From NCBI GenBank assembly GCA_020723855.1, contig DYIB01000014.1, positions 1 to 44,600 on the forward strand: DNA of 44,600 nucleotides. The letters are read 5' to 3'. The stretch comes from Uliginosibacterium gangwonense (lineage in GTDB: Bacteria > Pseudomonadota > Gammaproteobacteria > Burkholderiales > Rhodocyclaceae). Of the stretch, positions 1-7,909 are shown piece by piece; within the stretch, counting starts at the first letter, position 1, and every line of letters starts with the position of its first letter. Below the pieces are notes generated by a model. It was not told the DNA's origin, ran no database searches, and saw only the letters and a program-made list of their open reading frames with translations. A program made the position numbers and the translations under genes.

Positions 1-702
1 GAGGCGGGCGTTGGGCAGGTGCTCGGTCACGCCCTTGATGAAGGCGGGCGACATGTCGATGCTGACCGAGCTGACTTGTTCCGGCGTGGCCTGGTGTTCG
101 GTGAGGTGCCGGGCCAGCCGCTCGATGGTTTCGGCGTCCCGGCCCTCGGTCACGAACACCACCTTGCGCGCTTCGGCATCGGCGGCAATCGTCAGGTAGT
201 TGTGGCCGCGCCGGTAGGAGGTCTCGTCGATGGCCAGCGCCGTCGTCTCGGCGAGAATCGGCCTCGGCCACGGCCAGCTCCACGTAGCGGGCGCGAGAAT
301 CGCCCACACCCGGTGCCAGGATTCGCCCACCGTGCGCGCCACTGCCGCGAAGGACATCTCGCGCGCAAGCGCCAGCACCAGGGCCTCGAAGAGCAGCGTG
401 AAACCGGAGAGCTTGCCCGCCCAGTCGGGCTCGACCAGCACCACCCGCCCGTCGGGCAGCCTCACCCGGGGCTGCCGCACTTCGAGATAGCACTCGTGCT
501 GGAAGAAGTTGAGATGCCGGTAACGCTTGACCTGGGTGTCGTGCACCGGGTGCAGCCCGGCAGCTTGCGGATGGGCAAAGCGGCTGCCGGCGGCAAAGTC
601 GATTCGAATCGTCAGGGTCTTCTTGGCGGCATCGAAATCGACCCCTTGGACGAACCAAGGGGAGGTGACGCCGAGGGCGGCTTCAAACAGTCGGTTGTGC
701 AT
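1..702 (-). CDS. ISL3-family transposase, truncated by the window edge
   Basis: The minus frame is open from ATG at 702 to base 1, giving the first 234 residues without a stop. The start reads MHNRLFEAALGVTSPWFVQG, a typical N-terminus of ISL3 transposases. Further in are the DDE-domain signatures AIDETSYRRGHNYLTI (about residues 156-171) and SIDMSPAFIKGVTEHLPNA (about 214-232), which carry the first catalytic Asp of the DDE_Tnp_ISL3 fold. ISL3 enzymes are usually about 400 residues, so roughly the last 40% is missing, including the catalytic Glu. The truncation is only the end of the window; whether the full gene is intact cannot be told. Confidence 0.85.
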   Translation of the reverse strand, partial: MHNRLFEAALGVTSPWFVQGVDFDAAKKTLTIRIDFAAGSRFAHPQAAGLHPVHDTQVKRYRHLNFFQHECYLEVRQPRVRLPDGRVVLVEPDWAGKLSGFTLLFEALVLALAREMSFAAVARTVGESWHRVWAILAPATWSWPWPRPILAETTALAIDETSYRRGHNYLTIAADAEARKVVFVTEGRDAETIERLARHLTEHQATPEQVSSVSIDMSPAFIKGVTEHLPNARL

Positions 703-717
703 GATCGCGTTGTTGTC

Positions 718-758
718 TCCAAGGCTGGATGCAGCATTCTGCCGCATCCAGCCTTGGA
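718..758. repeat. 15-bp perfect inverted repeat upstream of transposase
   Basis: TCCAAGGCTGGATGC at 718-732 and its exact reverse complement at 744-758 flank an 11-base loop. It begins 15 bases upstream of the transposase start codon. It may act as a hairpin controlling transposase expression or as a site for protein binding; no function is established from the sequence. Confidence 0.7.
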
Positions 759-767
759 CCAGCGTAT

Positions 768-848
768 CGGCTTGAACCCGGCGTCAAGGGTTCGCTGCGC
801 CGGGCGGCAAGAAGCGCGCCGCCCGCCCTTGACCCCGCCTTCAAGCCG
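768..848. repeat. Long imperfect hairpin in the IS subterminal region
   Basis: Three nested pairings are visible: CGGCTTGAA 768-776 with 840-848, GTCAAGGG 783-790 with 826-833, and CGGGCGGC 801-808 with 818-825. The left side carries a 10-base bulge at 791-800, and the inner loop is AAGAAGCGC. With the neighbouring hairpin at 718-758 this forms a strongly structured tract between the transposase start and the presumed IS end. Confidence 0.65.
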
Positions 849-976
849 GTTATGCCAGTAGCACCCATTCGGAATTCAAAAGAGGCAAATTTACAGAAAA
901 GGGGTTGCACAATCGATCGGCGGAAAGAACTGCCGGCGTGCAGTAGCAGGGCAAATGCAGAAATACCGCATTCTTG

Positions 977-1006
977 TTGCATCTCCCTCGCCATGTGGCG
1001 TAGAAT
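977..1006 (+). promoter_or_regulatory. Sigma70-type promoter for the DUF3800 leader
   Basis: TTGCAT at 977-982 and TAGAAT at 1001-1006 are separated by 18 bases. Transcription would begin at about 1012, at the 5' end of the structured leader described next. It is the best promoter match in the 703-1142 gene-free stretch. Confidence 0.5.
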
Positions 1007-1010
1007 TTGT

Positions 1011-1138
1011 ACCGAGGCAGGTAAATCCTGAACCCGCCGGGACGCCAACGCAGGTATCCTAAGCGCGCTGCAAGCGCGTCGGCCTCAGGGGCTGCCACCC
1101 TAATGATGGCTCCGGTTCCGGGGCCATTTTCATTTTTG
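1011..1138 (+). ncRNA. Structured leader RNA upstream of DUF3800, ending in a terminator
   Basis: The sequence between the promoter and the DUF3800 gene can fold extensively. GAGGC 1014-1018 pairs with GCCTC 1082-1086 to close a multibranch structure. Inside are CAGG 1018-1021/CCTG 1027-1030, CCC 1033-1035/GGG 1039-1041 and GCGCGCT 1063-1069/AGCGCGT 1073-1079. AGGG 1087-1090/CCCT 1098-1101 follows, then an intrinsic terminator at 1106-1137. Families of structured RNAs named DUF3800 motifs are known from comparative genomics to lie directly upstream of DUF3800 genes; this is a candidate member, but I cannot assign a class or show covariation. It could equally be a free small RNA or an attenuator. 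Confidence 0.5.
1106..1137 (+). terminator. Intrinsic terminator immediately before the DUF3800 start
   Basis: ATGGCTCC 1106-1113 pairs with GGGGCCAT 1120-1127 (one U-G pair, loop GGTTCC), followed by TTTCATTTTT. It ends about 5 bases before ATG 1143 and occupies the place where a ribosome-binding site would normally be, so expression of the gene should depend on read-through or antitermination. Confidence 0.75.
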
Positions 1139-1142
1139 GATC

Positions 1143-1799
1143 ATGGCGGCGCACATCTACCTGGACGAGAGCGGAGATACCGGCTGGCAATTCGACCGTC
1201 CCTATACCAAAGGCGGTTCGAGCCGCTTTCTCGTCATTGCGGCCTGTCTCGTCACGCCCGAAAAAGACCACAAACCGGAGCGCCTCCTGCGTCACATCTA
1301 CCGGCACCGGAACTGGAATCCCGGCAATGAGAAGAAGTGGGTACGCATGTCGCCCGAGGCCCGGTCGGCCTTCGCCAAGGCGGCGGCGAAACTCGCCGGC
1401 AACGATGCCGATATCGGATTTCACGCCATCGTCGCCGACAAGCGCAACGTGCAGGCCCACATCCGCGAGGATGCCAACAAGCTTTACAACTACATGGTCA
1501 AGCTGCTGCTACTGGAGGTCATGGCGCGGCATGACCGGGTGACTCTCGTGCCCGATCCGCGCTCGATCAAGGTGCAGAGCGGCAACAGCCTGCACGACTA
1601 CTTGCAGACCGAGCTGTGGCTTGGCCTGGGTGCCGCCACTCGGCTCGAAACGACGCCCCGCGACAGCCGCCACTGTCTCAACCTCCAGTTCGCCGACATG
1701 CTTGCCGGTGTCATTCAGTCCCATTTCGAGTTTGGCGACAGCCGGCACTGGGACCACTTGCGCGAGCACGTCCGGATTAAGCGGCTTTTCTGCGGCTGA
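1143..1799 (+). CDS. DUF3800 domain-containing protein
   Basis: A 218-residue protein opening with MAAHIYLDESGDTGW; the YLDESGD motif and the C-terminal NLQFADMLAGVIQSHFE segment (about residues 178-194) are the two hallmarks of DUF3800. The family is probably RNase-H-like judging from these conserved acidic residues, but its biochemical role is not established; members are common in genomic islands and near defence genes. There is no good Shine-Dalgarno sequence: the bases before the start are the U-tract of an intrinsic terminator. Length is normal for the family. It lies between an ISL3 element and a tRNA-fragment attachment site, so it is most likely island cargo. Confidence 0.85.
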   Translation: MAAHIYLDESGDTGWQFDRPYTKGGSSRFLVIAACLVTPEKDHKPERLLRHIYRHRNWNPGNEKKWVRMSPEARSAFAKAAAKLAGNDADIGFHAIVADKRNVQAHIREDANKLYNYMVKLLLLEVMARHDRVTLVPDPRSIKVQSGNSLHDYLQTELWLGLGAATRLETTPRDSRHCLNLQFADMLAGVIQSHFEFGDSRHWDHLREHVRIKRLFCG

Positions 1800-1877
1800 C
1801 AAGGCTATTTCGTCGACGACCGCCTAGAAGGCAGGTGTCACCGCTCCGACACTTTTCCGACACTGACGCGGTGAAAT

Positions 1878-1893
1878 CCCGGTATAATCCGGG
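1878..1893. other. Palindrome around a TATAAT box near the island end
   Basis: CCCGG-TATAAT-CCGGG forms a 5-bp-arm inverted repeat. Just upstream, CCGACACT occurs twice in close succession (1847-1865), and a related GTGTCGGGAACAC lies near 1935-1947. Such short repeats beside an attachment core may be recombinase or excisionase arm sites; no suitable -35 box is evident. This is inference only. Confidence 0.3.
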
Positions 1894-1957
1894 AGGTGTG
1901 AAGGTCGCAAGTGACTGACTTTTCAGCGTTGCCAGTGTCGGGAACACGCGCCGGAAA

Positions 1958-2005
1958 GCCTTCACACGGCAGGGGTCACAGGTTCGAACCCTGTGCCGCC
2001 CACCA
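1958..2005 (+). tRNA. 3' fragment of tRNA-Val(CAC), probable att scar
   Basis: The 48 bases match the 3' part of a tRNA: a partial anticodon stem GCC/GGC closing the 7-base loop TTCACAC (anticodon CAC at 1963-1965), a variable loop, a perfect T-arm ACAGG-TTCGAAC-CCTGT, the acceptor strand GCCGCCC, discriminator A and encoded CCA. The D-arm and 5' acceptor strand (expected GGGCGGC) are absent upstream, and only three bases of the 5' anticodon stem remain. It is therefore not a working tRNA. It is what is left at one end when an element integrates into the 3' half of a tRNA gene, placing the element on the left and chromosome on the right. Confidence 0.8.
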
Positions 2006-2015
2006 CCGGATCTCG

Positions 2016-2043
2016 AAGCCTGCGCCCGCGCAGGCTTTCTTGT
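2016..2043 (+). terminator. Intrinsic terminator of the former tRNA-Val gene
   Basis: AAGCCTGCGC at 2016-2025 is perfectly complementary to GCGCAGGCTT at 2028-2037, followed by TCTTGTTTG. It lies 10 bases after the tRNA CCA end, where a tRNA transcript would stop. Confidence 0.7.
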
Positions 2044-2060
2044 TTGTTTGGCTACGGCCT

Positions 2061-2079
2061 TAACCTGCTCCGCAGGTTA
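2061..2079. repeat. Perfect 8-bp stem, 3-base loop hairpin
   Basis: TAACCTGC-TCC-GCAGGTTA. There is no U-tract, so it is not an obvious terminator. It lies in the 1800-2174 gene-free stretch between the tRNA remnant and gltX. Confidence 0.55.
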
Positions 2080-2118
2080 GCCTGCGCCGCAAGAAACGGC
2101 TGGCGCCGTGTCTTGTGT

Positions 2119-2148
2119 GCCCGGCCCTGCGGGTTGCCGGGCTAAAAT
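2119..2148 (+). promoter_or_regulatory. Hairpin and candidate -10 box ahead of gltX
   Basis: GCCCGGC 2119-2125 pairs with GCCGGGC 2136-2142 and is followed directly by TAAAAT (2143-2148), a plausible -10 element 26 bases before the gltX start. A matching -35 at proper spacing is not clear, so this is a weak promoter call. Confidence 0.3.
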
Positions 2149-2174
2149 GAAATTTTGTCATTATCCCCTCGCCC

Positions 2175-3572
2175 ATGAACGGCAACAAGATCCGCACCCG
2201 TTTCGCCCCCAGCCCGACCGGCTATCTGCATATCGGCGGCGCCCGCACTGCGCTGTTCTCCTGGGCCTTCGCGCGCAAGCACGGCGGCAAGTTCATCCTG
2301 CGCATCGAGGACACGGACCTGGAGCGCTCCACCAAGGCCTCGGTGCAGGCGATCCTCGACGCCATGCACTGGCTGGGCCTGGACTACGACGAAGGACCCT
2401 ACTTCCAGATGCAGCGTCTGGCGCGTTATCGGGAGATGGCCGAGAAGCTGCTCGCCGAGGGCAAGGCCTACTGGTGCTATGCCAGCAGGGAAGAACTGGA
2501 CGCCCTGCGCGAGGCCCAGCGCGCACGCGGCGAAAAGCCGCGCTACGACGGCCGCTGGCGCCCCGAGAATGCCCGGGGCAAGACGCCCCCGGCGGGGGTG
2601 AAGCCGGTGCTGCGCTTCCGTAATCCCGAGGAAGGCTCGGTGGTGTGGAACGATCTGGTCAAGGGCCCGATCGAGTTCGCCAACAGCGAGCTGGACGACC
2701 TGGTGCTGCTGCGCGCCGACGGCGTGCCCACCTACAACTTCGGTGTCGTGGTCGATGATGTCGACATGGAGATGACCCATGTCATCCGCGGTGACGACCA
2801 CGTGAACAACACGCCGCGCCAGATCAACATCTATCGCGCCCTGGGCGCCGAGGTGCCCCTGTTCGCCCATGTGCCCATGATCCTGGGGGCCGACGGCGAG
2901 CGCCTGTCCAAGCGCCATGGCGCGGTGTCGGTGATGCAATACGAGCAGGACGGCTACCTGCCCCAGGGCCTGCTCAACTATCTGGCGCGCCTGGGCTGGT
3001 CCCACGGCAACGACGAGGTATTCTCGCTGGAGCAGTTCGTCGAATGGTTCGACCTGGAGCACATCAGCCGTTCGCCCGCCCAGTTCAACCCTGAGAAGCT
3101 GCTATGGCTCAACCAGCAGCATCTGAAGGCCGGCTCCGACGGCGAACTGGCGGTGCTGGTGGAGAAGCGGCTGGTGGCCGCGGGCATCGACATTCTTGCA
3201 GGACCGCCGCTGCCCCTGGTAGTGGGCCTCTACAAGGAGCGGGTGGCCACCCTCAATGAACTGGCCGATGCCATGCATCCCTTCTACGCGGTGCCCAAGC
3301 CGGCGGCCGAACTGGTGGCCCAGCACCTGACCGAGGCCGCACGGGAGGCGCTGCGCGAGCTGCGCGAGCGGCTGGCGGCAACGGAGTGGAACCGCGCCGC
3401 CCTGAGCCAGACACTCAAGGACGTGGTGGCGGCACGCGGCATGAAGCTGCCGCAGGTGGCGATCCCGCTGCGCGTGGTGTTGCTTGGGCAGACCCAGACG
3501 CCGTCCATCGACGCGCTGCTGGAAGTGTTCGGCCGCGACGCGGTGCTGCAGCGGCTCGAACCGTATATCTAA
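2175..3572 (+). CDS. gltX: Glutamate--tRNA ligase
   Basis: A 465-residue class I aminoacyl-tRNA synthetase that charges tRNA-Glu with glutamate in the cytosol. The N-terminus has the [18 protein letters not shown] signature, with HIGG at about residues 19-22 as the HIGH motif, and ERLSKRHG at about 241-248 is the KMSKS-equivalent loop. The region after about 330 is the anticodon-binding helical domain. Length is normal. The start at 2175 gives the canonical N-terminus; an upstream ATG at 2108 lies in another frame. It is a single gene on + facing a minus-strand gene, with a shared terminator-like hairpin between them. It begins just right of the tRNA-fragment junction and so is the first core chromosomal gene. 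Confidence 0.97.
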
Positions 3573-3605
3573 AAAAACGGTGCCCGCCGCGCCGGCGAGG
3601 CGGGC
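3571..3605 (-). terminator. Hairpin terminator between convergent genes
   Basis: GCCCGCC 3582-3588 pairs with GGCGGGC 3599-3605. Read on the minus strand the stem is followed by ACCG and then seven T, matching an imperfect intrinsic terminator for the glycine-zipper gene. The A7 tract overlaps the gltX stop codon. Confidence 0.45.
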
Positions 3606-3626
3606 GGGCGGTTCCCGGCGCGGCGC

Positions 3627-4304
3627 TCAGCCGCGCGCCAGGATCATGCCGTTCTGTACCCGCACCCGGTCGCCGGTGCGCCAGGAGGGCGCAGTGTCCT
3701 GCTCGAAGACGCGCGAGGTGCCGTCATCGAAGCGCACCACCACTTCGTAGCGCATGGTCTTGCGCATGGTACGTTCGATCTGATGGCCCGCCATGGCGCC
3801 GCCCACCACGCCGGCCACGGTGGCGAGCTTCCTACCGTCGCCCTTGCCCACCTGGTTGCCCAGCAGGCCGCCGAGTACGCCTCCGGCGACTGCGCCCATG
3901 CCTGTGCCTTCGTCCTTCTGTGCCACTTCACGCACCGATTCGATCACGCCGCAGTCCTTGCACACCGCCGGCTCGGCGGGTTTCGGGCCATAGGTCACGG
4001 GCGGCGCCGGGCGCTCGGCGGGCGGCTCGGTCCGCGCCACCTTGACAGGGGTGTGCCTGGGTGCCGCTTTCGGCGCCTCGGCCTTCTGCACGGGCTTGGC
4101 TGCCTCGGTCTTGTCGCCGGATTGCACCAGCGGTGCCGTTGCCGGCGCCGAGGCGCTTGCTTCCGGGAGCGTATCGTTGGTCTTGCTGCCGGCGGGCGGA
4201 ATGACGCCAAAAATGGCGGCTATGCCGCTCAGGCTGAAGAGAATGACGGCAATCGCCGCCACCCACAGTACCGGGTGCAGCTTGCGTGTGCCTTGAGTTT
4301 CCAT
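3627..4304 (-). CDS. Glycine-zipper 2TM envelope protein
   Basis: A 225-residue protein. Residues about 9-32 form one membrane segment (VLWVAAIAVILFSLSGIAAI); residues about 38-110 are a Pro/Ala/Lys-rich linker typical of periplasmic spacers; then a glycine-zipper block, MGAVAGGVLGGLLGNQVGKG, continues through VAGVVGGAMAGH. The C-terminus (YEVVVRFDDGTSRVFEQD) matches the end of 17-kDa surface-antigen/glycine-zipper 2TM proteins. The start at 4304 is chosen because AAGGAGG lies 5 bases upstream; the frame is open further but without membrane-protein character. The exact role is unknown; related proteins affect outer-membrane integrity. Confidence 0.8.
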   Translation of the reverse strand: METQGTRKLHPVLWVAAIAVILFSLSGIAAIFGVIPPAGSKTNDTLPEASASAPATAPLVQSGDKTEAAKPVQKAEAPKAAPRHTPVKVARTEPPAERPAPPVTYGPKPAEPAVCKDCGVIESVREVAQKDEGTGMGAVAGGVLGGLLGNQVGKGDGRKLATVAGVVGGAMAGHQIERTMRKTMRYEVVVRFDDGTSRVFEQDTAPSWRTGDRVRVQNGMILARG

Positions 4305-4452
4305 GTGTCCTCCTTGCGCGGTAGCGTTTTGGTTGCTGCCAACAATAACGCCTGCGGCAGGGAGCTGATGACCAGGGAAACAAACTGTTACAAAGCGCGG
4401 CGGGTTTTTACAAATGTATGCTGCGACTGTCGCCGGTGGGCGACGAAAGGCG

Positions 4453-6393
4453 TCACTCCTCGTCGGCCATGCCCCAGCCGGCCAAGGCATAGGGCAGCCC
4501 GGGGCGGCGCTGGGCGCGCAGGATGAAGCGTCCCGGATCCAGGGCGTCGGCCAGTTCGGCTTCGATGGGCCAGGGCTCGGCCGACAGCCGGCTGGCGAGC
4601 AGTTCCGCCGCCAGGGCCGACCAGATGATGCCGCGGGCGCCGTAGCCGGCAGCGGTGAACAGTCCCGTCCAGCGCGGCAGTTCGCGCAATGTCCTGGCCG
4701 GCGGCGCATCGGCGCACGTGAGCGGCCCGATCAGGGGCAGCTTGTCGGGCGATACCGGGCGAAAGCCCACGCGGCCGTCCAGCACTGCTGCGGCGAGCCC
4801 GGCGCCGTAGCCCGGCAGCATGCGCTCCAGGCGCTGCAGGTTGCCTTCCTGGTCGGACAGCCGAAGGGCAGGCTCTTCCGAGGCGTGGAAGCTGGCGCCG
4901 ACGCAGCGGACGCCATTCACTGCCGGGGTGATATAGCCTTCCCGGCAGACGACGATGTCCAGGAGCGGGGTCGCCGCTTCGGGCAGATAAGTGACTTGGC
5001 CGCGAAAGCAGCGCAGGGGCAGATGGGCCGCTTGGGCCAGGCGTTTCACCCCCAGCCCGTTGGCGAGGATCACCACCGGCGCTTCGGCAATCGCTGTGCC
5101 GGCGTCGTCGCGCAGCAGCCAGCCCGCTTCGGTGCCTTCAAGGCCGGCAATGGATACGCCAAAGCGAGTGCGCACGGGGTGCTTGGCCAGATTGGCGGCG
5201 CACAGGGCGGGCGGACTGGCCCAGGCGCCAGCGGGAAACCACCAGCCGCCGCCCGCCACCTCGCGACCGACGAGGCGCGCGGCTTCGGCGGCGTCTACCC
5301 AGCGCACGAACTCGGCGGGGAAGCCGCGCCGTTCCACGATTCTGCGTTGATTCTCCAGGTGCACTTGGTCACGCGCCAACTGCAGGACGCCGCAGGCCTG
5401 CCAGGGTACGTGCAGCCCTTGTTCCGCCAGCGCGCGCAGATGGCGCAGCGCGTAAAGAAAGCCGGCGCGGGCCAGGCGCGACAGACGGTTGTCGTCCAGG
5501 CTCAGGACGGGAAGCAGGGCACCCGTGAGGTTGCCCGACGTCTCCCGCCCCGGGCCGGGCTGGCGGTCGATGACGGTGACATCCCAGCCGCGTGCGGCGA
5601 GCCGTTCGGCGCAGGCGCTGCCGGCCAGCCCCGCGCCCAGCACGACGGCCCTGCGCGCCACGTCCTGGTCGTCCGCGGCGCTTGCCGATGTCATCCGGGC
5701 GTACAGCATTTCGCGCTTGCCGCCGAAGCCGGGCCGCTTGTGCACGGCAAAGCCGGCGGCAGCGAGGGCCTGGCGCACGCCGCCGGCCACGCTCCAGGTG
5801 GCGGCGCTGGCATCCGCCGCCGCCAGGCGGCCGAGCGCCGCCATGAGTTCCGCCGACCACAGCTCGGGGTTCCGGGCTGGCGCGAAGCCGTCCAGGTAGA
5901 AGGCGTCGAAGCGGCCGGCGATCTGCGGCAGAGCGAGGCGTGCATCGTCGAAAGCCAGGGTGAGGGTGACGCGCCCGTCGTCGAAATGCAGGCGATGGAA
6001 GCCGGGCACTAGCACCGGCCATTGGCCTCGCAGCTCCTGCGCCAGCTCGGCCAGCTCGCCGTAGCGCTCGTGAAGCACGGCGAGATCGGCAGGGCCGAAG
6101 GGATGCTTTTCCACCGAGAAGAAATGCAGGCGCTGCGGGCGCTGGGGATCGGCGCGCCAGGCGGCCCAGGTGGCAAGGAAGTTGAGGCCCGTGCCGAAGC
6201 CGGTCTCGAGTATGGAGAAGAGCGGGCGCCCGCGCCAGCGCGCCGGCAAATCGTTGCCGCCGAGGAAGACGTGGCGCGCCTGGCCGAGCCCGCCGTCGGC
6301 GGAATGATAGACGTCGCCGTAGGCTTCCGAGTAAGGCACCCCCTGCGCGGTGAAGGCGAGGCGGGCAGGCTCCAGGGGCGCGCGCTCGGTCAC
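4453..6393 (-). CDS. mnmC: tRNA mnm5s2U biosynthesis bifunctional protein MnmC
   Basis: A 646-residue bifunctional enzyme that completes the 5-methylaminomethyl group on wobble U34 of tRNA-Lys, tRNA-Glu and tRNA-Gln. The N-terminal half is the SAM methyltransferase ([13 protein letters not shown] at about 60-72, [17 protein letters not shown] at about 173-189). The C-terminal half is the FAD-dependent demodification oxidase beginning at [20 protein letters not shown] (about 251-270). GTG 6393 is taken as start because it gives the family N-terminus and lies 8 bases after the lysS stop, with GGAGAG inside the lysS end as ribosome-binding site. The longer frame to 6570 merely overlaps lysS. It is cotranscribed with lysS, whose tRNA it modifies. 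Confidence 0.93.
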
Positions 6394-6400
6394 GGCCCGG

Positions 6401-7909
6401 TCAGCTCTCCTTGCGCAGTTGCGGGAACAGGATGACGTCGCGGATGGACGGGCTGTCGGTGAGCAGCATGACCAGGCGATCGATGCCGATGCCGCAGCCG
6501 GCGGTGGGCGGCAGGCCGTACTCCAGGGCGCGGATGTAGTCGGCGTCGTAGTACATGGCTTCCTCGTCACCCGCTTCCTTGGCCTTGACCTGTTCCAGGA
6601 AGCGCTGGGCCTGGTCTTCCGGGTCGTTCAGCTCGGAGAAGCCGTTGGCGATCTCGCGCCCGACGATGTACAGCTCGAAGCGCTCGGTGATGTCCGGGTT
6701 CTTGTCGCTGCGCCGCGCCAACGGGCTGGTCTCCGCCGGCCAGTCGATGATGAAGGTGGGATCGAACAGCTCCTGCTCGGTGGTCTCCTCGAACAGGGTG
6801 AGCTGCAGCGTGCCAAGCCCGGCGTGCGGGCGCGGCTCGATCTTGAAATCCTTGAGCTTGTTGCGCAGCCAGGCTTCGTCGTTGAGCTGGGCCAGGCTCC
6901 AGCCGGGATGGTACTTGTGGATGGCTTCCACGATGGTCATGCGCGCGAAGGGCTTGGAGAAATCCAGGGTGCGCCCCTGGTACTCGAACTGCAGCATGCC
7001 CAGCGCCTCGTGGGCGGCGTGGCGCAGCAGGCCTTCGGTGAAGTTCATGAGCAGCCGGTAGTCCGAGTAGGCCTCGTAGAACTCCATCATGGTGAATTCG
7101 GGGTTGTGGCGGGTCGAGATGCCTTCGTTGCGGAAGTTGCGGTTGATCTCGAACACCTTCTCGAAGCCGCCCACCACCAGGCGCTTGAGGTAGAGCTCGG
7201 GTGCGATGCGCAGGTACAGCTCCATGTCCAGGGCGTTGTGGTGGGTCTTGAAGGGACGCGCCGCAGCGCCGCCGGGAATGGGATGCATCATGGGCGTTTC
7301 GACTTCCAGGAAGCCGTGCTCCACCATGTAGGCACGGATCGACTGCACCAGGCGCGAGCGGACGACGAAGACGAAGCGCGAGCGCTCGTTGGTGATGAGG
7401 TCGAGGTAACGCTGCCGGTACTTCTGCTCCGTGTCGGTGAGGCCGCGGAACTTCTCCGGCAGGGGGCGCAGTGCCTTGGTGAGCAGGCGTAGTTCGCGTG
7501 CTGACACCGTCAGCTCGCCGGTCTTGGTCTTGAACAGGGTGCCGCGCACGCCGACGATATCGCCGATGTCCCAGTGCTTGAAGGCGGCATGCACCGCCTC
7601 GCCTGTGACGTCGTTGCTGACGTAGATCTGGATGCGGCCGGAGAGATCCTGGATGGTGGCGAAGCTCGCCTTGCCCATGACGCGCTTGAGCATGATGCGC
7701 CCGGCCACGGCGACCTCCACCGGCAGCTGTTCCAGTTCCTCCCGCGACTTCTCGCCGTAGGCCTCGTCCAGCTTGGCGGCAACGGTGTTGCGGAAGAAAT
7801 CGTTGGGGAAGGCGATGCCTTCCTGGCGCAGCCTGGCGAGCTTCTCGCGCCGCTCGGCGATGATCTGGTTCTCGTCCTGGACAGAGGGGGGGGGGGTTGC
7901 TTCGGACAT
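6401..7909 (-). CDS. lysS: Lysine--tRNA ligase, class II
   Basis: A 502-residue cytosolic enzyme that charges tRNA-Lys. An OB-fold anticodon-binding domain (about 60-160) precedes the class II core: motif 2 around [20 protein letters not shown] (about 265-284) and motif 3 [13 protein letters not shown] (about 475-487). Codons 5-8 (Thr-Pro-Pro-Pro) are encoded by an uninterrupted run of 11 C. The start has no visible Shine-Dalgarno sequence. Its usual partner prfB lies upstream, but here a toxin-antitoxin pair is inserted between them, leaving 24 bases between the toxin stop and this start, so lysS is probably expressed as part of the same transcript. Confidence 0.97.
7882..7892. repeat. Homopolymer run of 11 G (11 C in lysS)
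   Basis: An uninterrupted G11 tract on + falls in codons 5-8 of lysS. Runs of this length are prone to slippage in replication and to read errors. Confidence 0.85.

Follow-up and report, generated by a model that had tools for sequence, protein, structure and literature searches.

The first kilobases of the Uliginosibacterium gangwonense DNA analysed here (44,600 nucleotides, hereafter the window) carry a two-part module: a compact structured RNA and, behind an intrinsic terminator, a gene for a DUF3800 protein. We judge, with confidence slightly outweighing doubt, that this locus functions in the manner of a type III toxin-antitoxin or abortive-infection unit, in which the RNA probably keeps a nuclease in check. 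The features computed here are the fold of the RNA, its linkage to the gene, the occurrence of free-standing RNAs and the presence of broken genes behind intact RNAs. They also include the designs of the terminators, the fold predicted for the protein, the lack of a recurrent flanking family, and carriage by plasmids and viruses.

Layout of the locus

All parts of the module lie on the forward strand of the window. A putative promoter (977-1006) is followed by the structured RNA (1014-1097), which represents a divergent DUF3800-I branch, by the intrinsic terminator (1105-1137) and by the DUF3800 gene (1143-1799), an intact reading frame of 218 codons. The final T of the terminator tail is at 1137 and the ATG at 1143, with GGATC between them; the spacing of five bases given in the initial annotation is exact.

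The promoter is the weak part of that annotation. Its -10-like box, TAGAAT (1001-1006), matches the consensus at five of six bases, and from it the transcript would be expected to start near 1013. The -35-like box, TTGCAT (977-982), is poor (three of six), and a consensus scan of window 1-3000 called no promoter. Leader statistics were compiled for 113 of 167 loci (97 sources and 16 less redundant viral loci, near-identical viral loci being omitted by hand), and a -10-like box lies 8-17 nt ahead of the RNA model start in 76 of these 113, where control windows predict 21.

An ISL3-family transposase gene (1-747, reverse strand), cut by the contig start, lies upstream of the module. Behind the DUF3800 gene is a tRNA-Val(CAC) gene of which only the 3' half is present (about 1958-2005, forward strand); the tRNA identity was read by eye, and ARAGORN calls none. 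The word GTGTGAAGG at 1896-1904 (forward strand) reappears inverted as CCTTCACAC at 1959-1967. In the assembly, which is 84% complete, the tRNA-Val 3' end occurs solely at this site, and no whole tRNA-Val(CAC) copy matched the pattern used. This tRNA-Val half behind the gene raised the possibility of a tRNA-targeting element. The stretch 1896-2005 looks like an island border within a tRNA anticodon loop, and the module is perhaps at the edge of such an island.

Structure and family of the RNA

The RNA is built from five helices. P0 (1015-1020/1092-1097) closes the whole molecule, its outermost pair being unformed in the window, and encloses P1 (1027-1031/1085-1089), P2 (1036-1039/1080-1083), P3 (1040-1046/1053-1059) and P4 (1063-1068/1074-1079), all on the forward strand. 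Folded as a single sequence, the window RNA does only modestly better than chance (z -2.05, matched by 6 of 200 shuffles), yet covariation in 76 homologues supports the pairing. In an alignment of 76 leaders of the commoner type (A2), the window among them, 94.6% of cells are paired and both-side changes occur in 23 of 27 pairs. The covariation score is 0.606, as against 0.253 for shuffled alignments and 0.067-0.102 with the partners slid. The first pair of P3, for example, is C-G in 47 leaders, U-A in 22, G-C in six (including the window) and U-G in one. The foldable leader proposed from the window letters thus proves to be conserved as a paired structure among its homologues.

The unpaired stretches GUAAA and UAAG and the P4 loop are conserved, and variation, judged by eye, is confined to a joint of some 5 nt and to the P3 hairpin. 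An RNA-guided reading was set aside, since inspection of the alignment by eye reveals no variable single-stranded stretch of guide size.

At gathering scores, Rfam gives no match in the window and no DUF3800 family in 17 relatives, and the RNA family was therefore modelled afresh as a covariance model (R1) built from the 76-leader alignment. Model R1 scores the window RNA at 83 bits, the window being one of its 76 training rows. In a permissive scan of 4227 Rfam families the best match is RF02969 (DUF3800-I) at 1004-1138 (34.2 bits; E 0.0044 in 1331 bases), aligned over model positions 1-115 of 115, and the RNA sits just upstream of a DUF3800 gene as this family does. Full length and first rank support the earlier assignment to the DUF3800-associated RNAs; formal membership does not follow, the score lying below the gathering score of 44.2 bits. 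On 16 whole genomes RF02969 has a match at E <=1 in 14; each of these 14 has an R1 site as its best match, but in none of the 16 does the score exceed the cut-off. Because of this agreement below the cut-off, the window RNA is best described, on sequence comparison, as a branch of DUF3800-I-like RNAs beyond the reach of that cut-off. An E-value scan of eight relatives gave DUF3800-I in L008 alone (37.6 bits). RF02969 has no match on 299 genomes of the phylum, but control genomes were equally silent, which makes that search uninformative. The branch resembles RF02969 in its position before a DUF3800 gene and in its terminal terminator, and differs in architecture: here P0 closes the whole RNA, whereas the Rfam model has a 5' hairpin.

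The DUF3800 protein

The window protein matches Pfam DUF3800 (PF12686) at 48.4 bits (E 2.1e-12), above the cut-off of 21, and phrog_9243 at E 1.5e-66. PADLOC assigns it to the candidate PDC-M04A; a literature search on PDC-M04 found nothing. A sequence search of the PDB has no match up to E 10, and in Pfam the protein matches DUF3800 and one sub-threshold family only, with no RNase HII match. An AlphaFold2 model built with 87 aligned relatives (pLDDT 93.6, pTM 0.90) leads, by Foldseek against the PDB, to RNase HII at E 1e-5. VIA-align superposes the model on the RNase HII structure 1eke_B with a Z of 13.4 over 164 residues (rmsd 2.7 A). The next structural neighbours are H2 and H3 enzymes, with Argonaute/PIWI proteins up to Z 8.9; ToxN-type proteins are absent among the structural matches listed.

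Residues D8 and E9 are invariant in the 87 DUF3800 sequences, and D138 and D185 are present in at least 90% of them. Residues 2..199 of the model align on 1..173 of 1eke_B, which suggests, from aligned ranges rather than residue by residue, that D8 and E9 should fall on the Asp-Glu pair of RNase HII strand 1, which we take to be catalytic. On the model, the DUF3800 protein is thus a predicted nuclease of RNase HII-like fold. Like RNase HII, it has this fold and a first-strand Asp-Glu pair; it differs in an identity of 11%, in the absence of a Pfam RNase HII match and in the acidic residues D138 and D185, which may sit differently. Such a displacement would be in line with the available portion of one report, which already describes an RNase H fold with "catalytic rearrangement" for DUF3800 (PMC10910872).

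Linkage of the RNA to the gene

Relatives of the DUF3800 protein were collected from plasmids and phages (nine regions), from IMG/VR (77 loci) and from GTDB species genomes (the best 80 of 129 relatives). A loose motif finds the leader upstream in 116 of 118 loci; the two that it missed (L051 and L057) were found by model R1. The model detects the RNA upstream of the gene in all 97 sources, of which 67 supplied sequences to the model and 30 were held out. Of the held-out leaders, 22 had been left out by the selecting pattern, including those of the Burkholderiales and Acinetobacter type; these 22 match at E-values from 4.6e-17 to 4.5e-4. The RNA also precedes the gene in 69 of 70 further viral loci (nine of them in model R1, many near-identical, and L165 weak at 20.9 bits), the exception being L106, which starts at the gene. 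In sum, none of 166 DUF3800 loci, related loci not being independent, lacked the RNA. The leader proposed for the window thus recurs before every gene for which upstream sequence is present.

The RNA is a single element at most of these sites: model R1 matches the window once, and among the 97 sources further copies occur only in L023 and L025, hundreds of bases apart. Identities of RNA and protein are correlated (rho 0.54, permutation maximum 0.18, 64 loci), which shows co-inheritance, not function.

RNA copies without an intact gene

Two pattern scans of IMG/VR yielded 61 and 22 stretches. Model R1 confirms 25 of 60 tested stretches of the first scan plus L101, and three of 22 of the second, giving 29 viral RNAs. 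A pattern scan for another RNA form in viral contigs found nothing. An apparently whole gene follows 19 of the 29 (including L198 and L213, which are cut by the stretch end), a broken gene follows three (L214, L225 and L216) and seven are without a gene (L190, L205, L209, L228, L229, L239 and L245; about 290 bases are visible downstream of L229). Ten of the 29 are therefore without an intact gene, and 22 precede DUF3800 or its remnant. Some orphans resemble one another (L209 and L228; L239 and L245).

Genomes contribute further solitary copies. The 80 genomes (best 80 of 129) contain 87 RNA copies, 81 beside a DUF3800 gene and six alone: two in L025 (3324 and 6902), one in L023 (1529), two in the L021 genome and one, eroded, in the L038 genome. 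At eight distinct loci the gene that follows a matching RNA is frameshifted or truncated, though sequencing errors may account for some of these cases (L010/L127, L022, L058, L059, L071, L080, L124/L216 and L170/L214/L225). When seven of the 13 gene-free RNAs and four broken-gene RNAs are aligned with the window, 95.4% of cells are paired and 16 of 27 pairs have both-side changes. Orphan RNAs may also be decaying relics: L288 is visibly eroded, and L239 and L245 diverge directly behind P0.

Unrelated phage genes stand behind the orphan RNAs, such as a peptidase M15 gene in L190. Related phages appear to have a swappable slot behind the RNA terminator: the RNA and terminator region of L209 (2731-2811, reverse strand) and L228 (9567-9647, forward strand) is common with that of L188 (7339-7419, reverse strand). 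Behind the terminator the likeness breaks off, and a KilA-N gene (Pfam 87.6 bits in L228) replaces the DUF3800 gene that L188 retains. The richest case is L025, whose stretch 3324-6985 holds four RNA copies and two DUF3800 genes within 4 kb, with a ribbon-helix-helix/ParE toxin-antitoxin pair between RNA copies, amid inverted REP-like repeats. In L231, a decayed fragment (about 670-730) upstream of an intact module resembles by eye an internal part of the DUF3800 gene next to it and may be the trace of an earlier copy or a duplication.

The asymmetry between RNA and gene is the pattern expected if the protein depends on the RNA but not the RNA on the protein. It speaks against the reverse arrangement, in which the protein would be the protective part and would restrain a harmful or selfish RNA. 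Transposon sequencing of Legionella pneumophila placed a DUF3800 gene among essential accessory genes alongside antitoxins, according to the available part of that report (PMC7811196). This would suit a protective protein and would speak against a simple toxin. With many RNAs lacking a gene or preceding a broken one, and no gene with upstream sequence standing without the RNA, we regard a protective protein as very improbable.

The asymmetry alone does not separate an antitoxin from a cofactor. The nuclease could need the RNA as a cofactor or scaffold, the two making up an RNA-protein enzyme, with perhaps a role in defence and without any inhibition. Constant linkage (97/97 and 69/70) and the highly conserved unpaired nucleotides of the RNA would fit such an enzyme, as would the RNase H-type fold with Argonaute PIWI domains among its neighbours (Z up to 8.9), and the RNA-gene asymmetry would fit too. 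DUF3800 proteins also accompany some Cas12a2/V-A2 and VI-F CRISPR loci, as described in the available parts of two reports (PMC10910872, PMC12669027). An inhibitor, however, accounts more naturally for an intervening terminator and for RNAs that stand alone, and the alignment shows by eye no variable stretch of guide size; we consider a pure cofactor role unlikely, though it deserves some weight.

Terminators and control of the gene

The window terminator consists of a 10-pair hairpin (1105-1128) and a T-rich tail reaching 1137. The segment 1103-1142 folds at -17.2 kcal/mol (z -3.47), and none of 200 shuffles folds as well. A plain scan of window 1-3000 finds three terminator-like sites as against 2.4 expected, which is near chance; support for the terminator therefore comes from its folding energy, its position and its recurrence in homologues. 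Two loci (L013 and L095) whose start was not recognised were dropped from the leader statistics, leaving 111, in which the distance from the RNA end to the start codon is 3-116 nt (median 33). A hairpin with a U tract is found in 46 of these 111 gaps, as compared with a mean of 6.95 and a maximum of 11 in 20 rounds of shuffling. Folding energy and recurrence together uphold the terminator called in the initial annotation.

A terminator-like stop separates RNA from gene in 91 of 111 loci overall, in varying designs. In 45 loci a U tract lies directly behind P0 (the shuffle control covers the hairpin form only), and there the RNA would appear to act as its own terminator. A separate hairpin and U tract of the window type occurs in 40 loci, both rules are satisfied in six, and neither form is recognised by the rule used in 20. 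Control of the RNA-to-protein ratio by termination therefore cannot be universal.

The terminator may also act on translation. The words GGAG, GAGG or AGGA occur in 28 of 45 terminator 3' arms, as against 16 of 307 control terminator-like hairpins from the same loci, and a ribosome-site-like word remains in 19 of 35 arms when identical hairpins are counted once. At nine loci GGAGG stands exactly 10 nt ahead of the start codon. We hold that in a Burkholderiales group the terminator would hide the ribosome site. The same arrangement was rejected for the window, where the G-rich arm of the terminator is too far from the start codon; the window DUF3800 start codon is without a well-placed ribosome-binding site. 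A ribosome-site-like word at a useful distance is found in three of 45 loci of the U-tract form and in one of 20 without a recognised terminator. Overall such words precede the gene in 23 of 111 loci as compared with 66 of 237 neighbouring ORFs, a weak comparison as the neighbours' starts are unrefined. The DUF3800 protein seems to be made sparingly, whether because transcription terminates, because the ribosome site is hidden or missing, or for both reasons.

These arrangements would also suit a purely cis-acting leader of DUF3800, that is, an autoregulatory binding site, an attenuator or a riboswitch. The RNA lies directly before the gene, with a terminator at its end in most loci, and the terminator appears to hide the ribosome site in the Burkholderiales group. 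The AbiF system demonstrates that terminator attenuation and antitoxin action can coexist, as far as the available text of that study goes (PMC12373285). Against a solely cis-acting role are the 13 RNA copies with no DUF3800 gene behind them, the failure to find the RNA before a range of metabolic genes, and the loci in which a recognised terminator is missing; such a role is accordingly quite unlikely. The terminator-based riboswitch, one of two comparisons offered at the outset, is disfavoured for the same reasons. Rather than preceding several gene families, as a riboswitch leader would, the RNA is tied to one (81 of 87 genomic copies precede DUF3800), has free-standing copies and is without a recognised terminator in 20 of 111 loci.

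Distribution and genomic surroundings

The ORFs that flank the 80 genome loci (best 80 of 129) most closely number 147, called mechanically with at least 70 codons. No Pfam family recurs in more than three of them and no PADLOC family in more than two, and hence no third partner is apparent. The module is found in 33 PLSDB plasmid records, in three Acinetobacter phage records (one amid tail genes) and in many IMG/VR contigs. According to record titles, the same 80 loci fall in classes of Pseudomonadota, in Acidobacteria, Bacteroidota, Chloroflexi, Nitrospirae and Planctomycetota, in Campylobacterota genera and in others; metagenome bins are numerous among them, and individual placements may be mistaken. 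The module is rare per genome: a DUF3800 protein search of 61 near genomes found the window's own genome and one other, and model R1 on 369 genomes of the class found only the window's genome and that of L026.

Two carriers have further features. A small Acinetobacter pittii plasmid (L005) holds an intact module at 3039-3692 alongside a carbapenemase gene and VapBC. A module-bearing viral contig (L014) has an ALIL pseudoknot (RF01497, 114.9 bits) at 3481-3597; this pseudoknot is a frameshift signal of IS elements.

Comparison with known RNA-protein systems

Classical type III systems (ToxIN, CptNI and TenpNI) have the same order of RNA, terminator and protein gene, and produce excess RNA through termination. 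The likeness to type III loci noted earlier is sound as regards this order, with the intrinsic terminator present in the window and a terminator-like stop in 91 of 111 loci. Strict membership does not follow. The classical antitoxin is a tandem-repeat RNA, cut by the toxin in ToxIN, and the protein is of ToxN type, as far as the available text describes them (PMC12373285). The DUF3800 RNA is a single unrepeated unit and the best fold match of its protein is RNase HII; the module is not a classical type III system.

The closest bench-proven parallels of the DUF3800 module are AbiF/RCd22 and AvcID. In AbiF/RCd22 of Clostridioides difficile, the RNA is reported to bind the protein and thereby neutralise it, in cis as well as in trans, and the RCd22 terminator also to lower abiF expression (PMC12373285). 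The accessible part of that study describes the same succession of promoter, structured non-coding RNA, Rho-independent terminator and protein gene, likewise prophage-borne. There are three differences: AbiF belongs to the Abi_2/AbiD/F family linked to Cas13, whereas the DUF3800 protein is RNase HII-like; RCd22 has two motif copies and the DUF3800 RNA one unit; and a ribosome site precedes abiF, with none well placed in the window (PMC12373285). In AvcID, described as type III, a non-coding RNA is reported to inhibit an enzyme and to vanish once transcription stops (PMC10511110). The enzyme there is a deoxycytidylate deaminase, and AvcI is about 280 nt long with no terminator predicted in the available portion of the source, as against about 120 nt with a terminator for the window RNA (PMC10511110). 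These two parallels underlie our judgement that the module works like a type III toxin-antitoxin. A literature search that combined RNase HII with toxin, non-coding RNA and anti-phage defence found no paper.

Proposed mechanism

In the inhibitory scheme, the promoter just upstream would give rise to a terminated RNA of about 120 nt, made in excess, and a minority of read-through transcripts would serve as DUF3800 mRNA. This mRNA would probably be translated poorly, because the start lies directly behind the terminator and lacks a well-placed ribosome-binding site. The folded RNA would bind the nuclease of RNase HII fold and hold it inactive. Upon a stop in transcription or loss of the element, the RNA would decay first and the nuclease would be freed. 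Several elements of this scheme are inferred rather than computed: that the protein is toxic, that the RNA binds it directly, that the RNA is in excess and labile, what the trigger is and what substrate the nuclease has.

Significance

DUF3800-associated RNAs have been on record hitherto without a function, and none was found in the literature searched. For one branch of them, the analysis adds a strong RNA structure, an asymmetry between gene and RNA, and a tie between the protein and an RNase HII-like fold. Tentatively, and at somewhat less than even confidence, the module may represent a widespread kind of RNA-inhibited toxin, in which a compact, unrepeated RNA checks an RNase HII-fold nuclease. 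Going by record titles, it would span about a dozen bacterial phyla, carried by plasmids, prophages and islands, and the free-standing RNAs, including those of phages, would serve as anti-addiction or immunity genes against the nuclease. If the RNA neutralises the protein in trans, RNA-inhibited toxins would extend to a further nuclease fold, and the stand-alone RNAs would become candidate anti-addiction genes.
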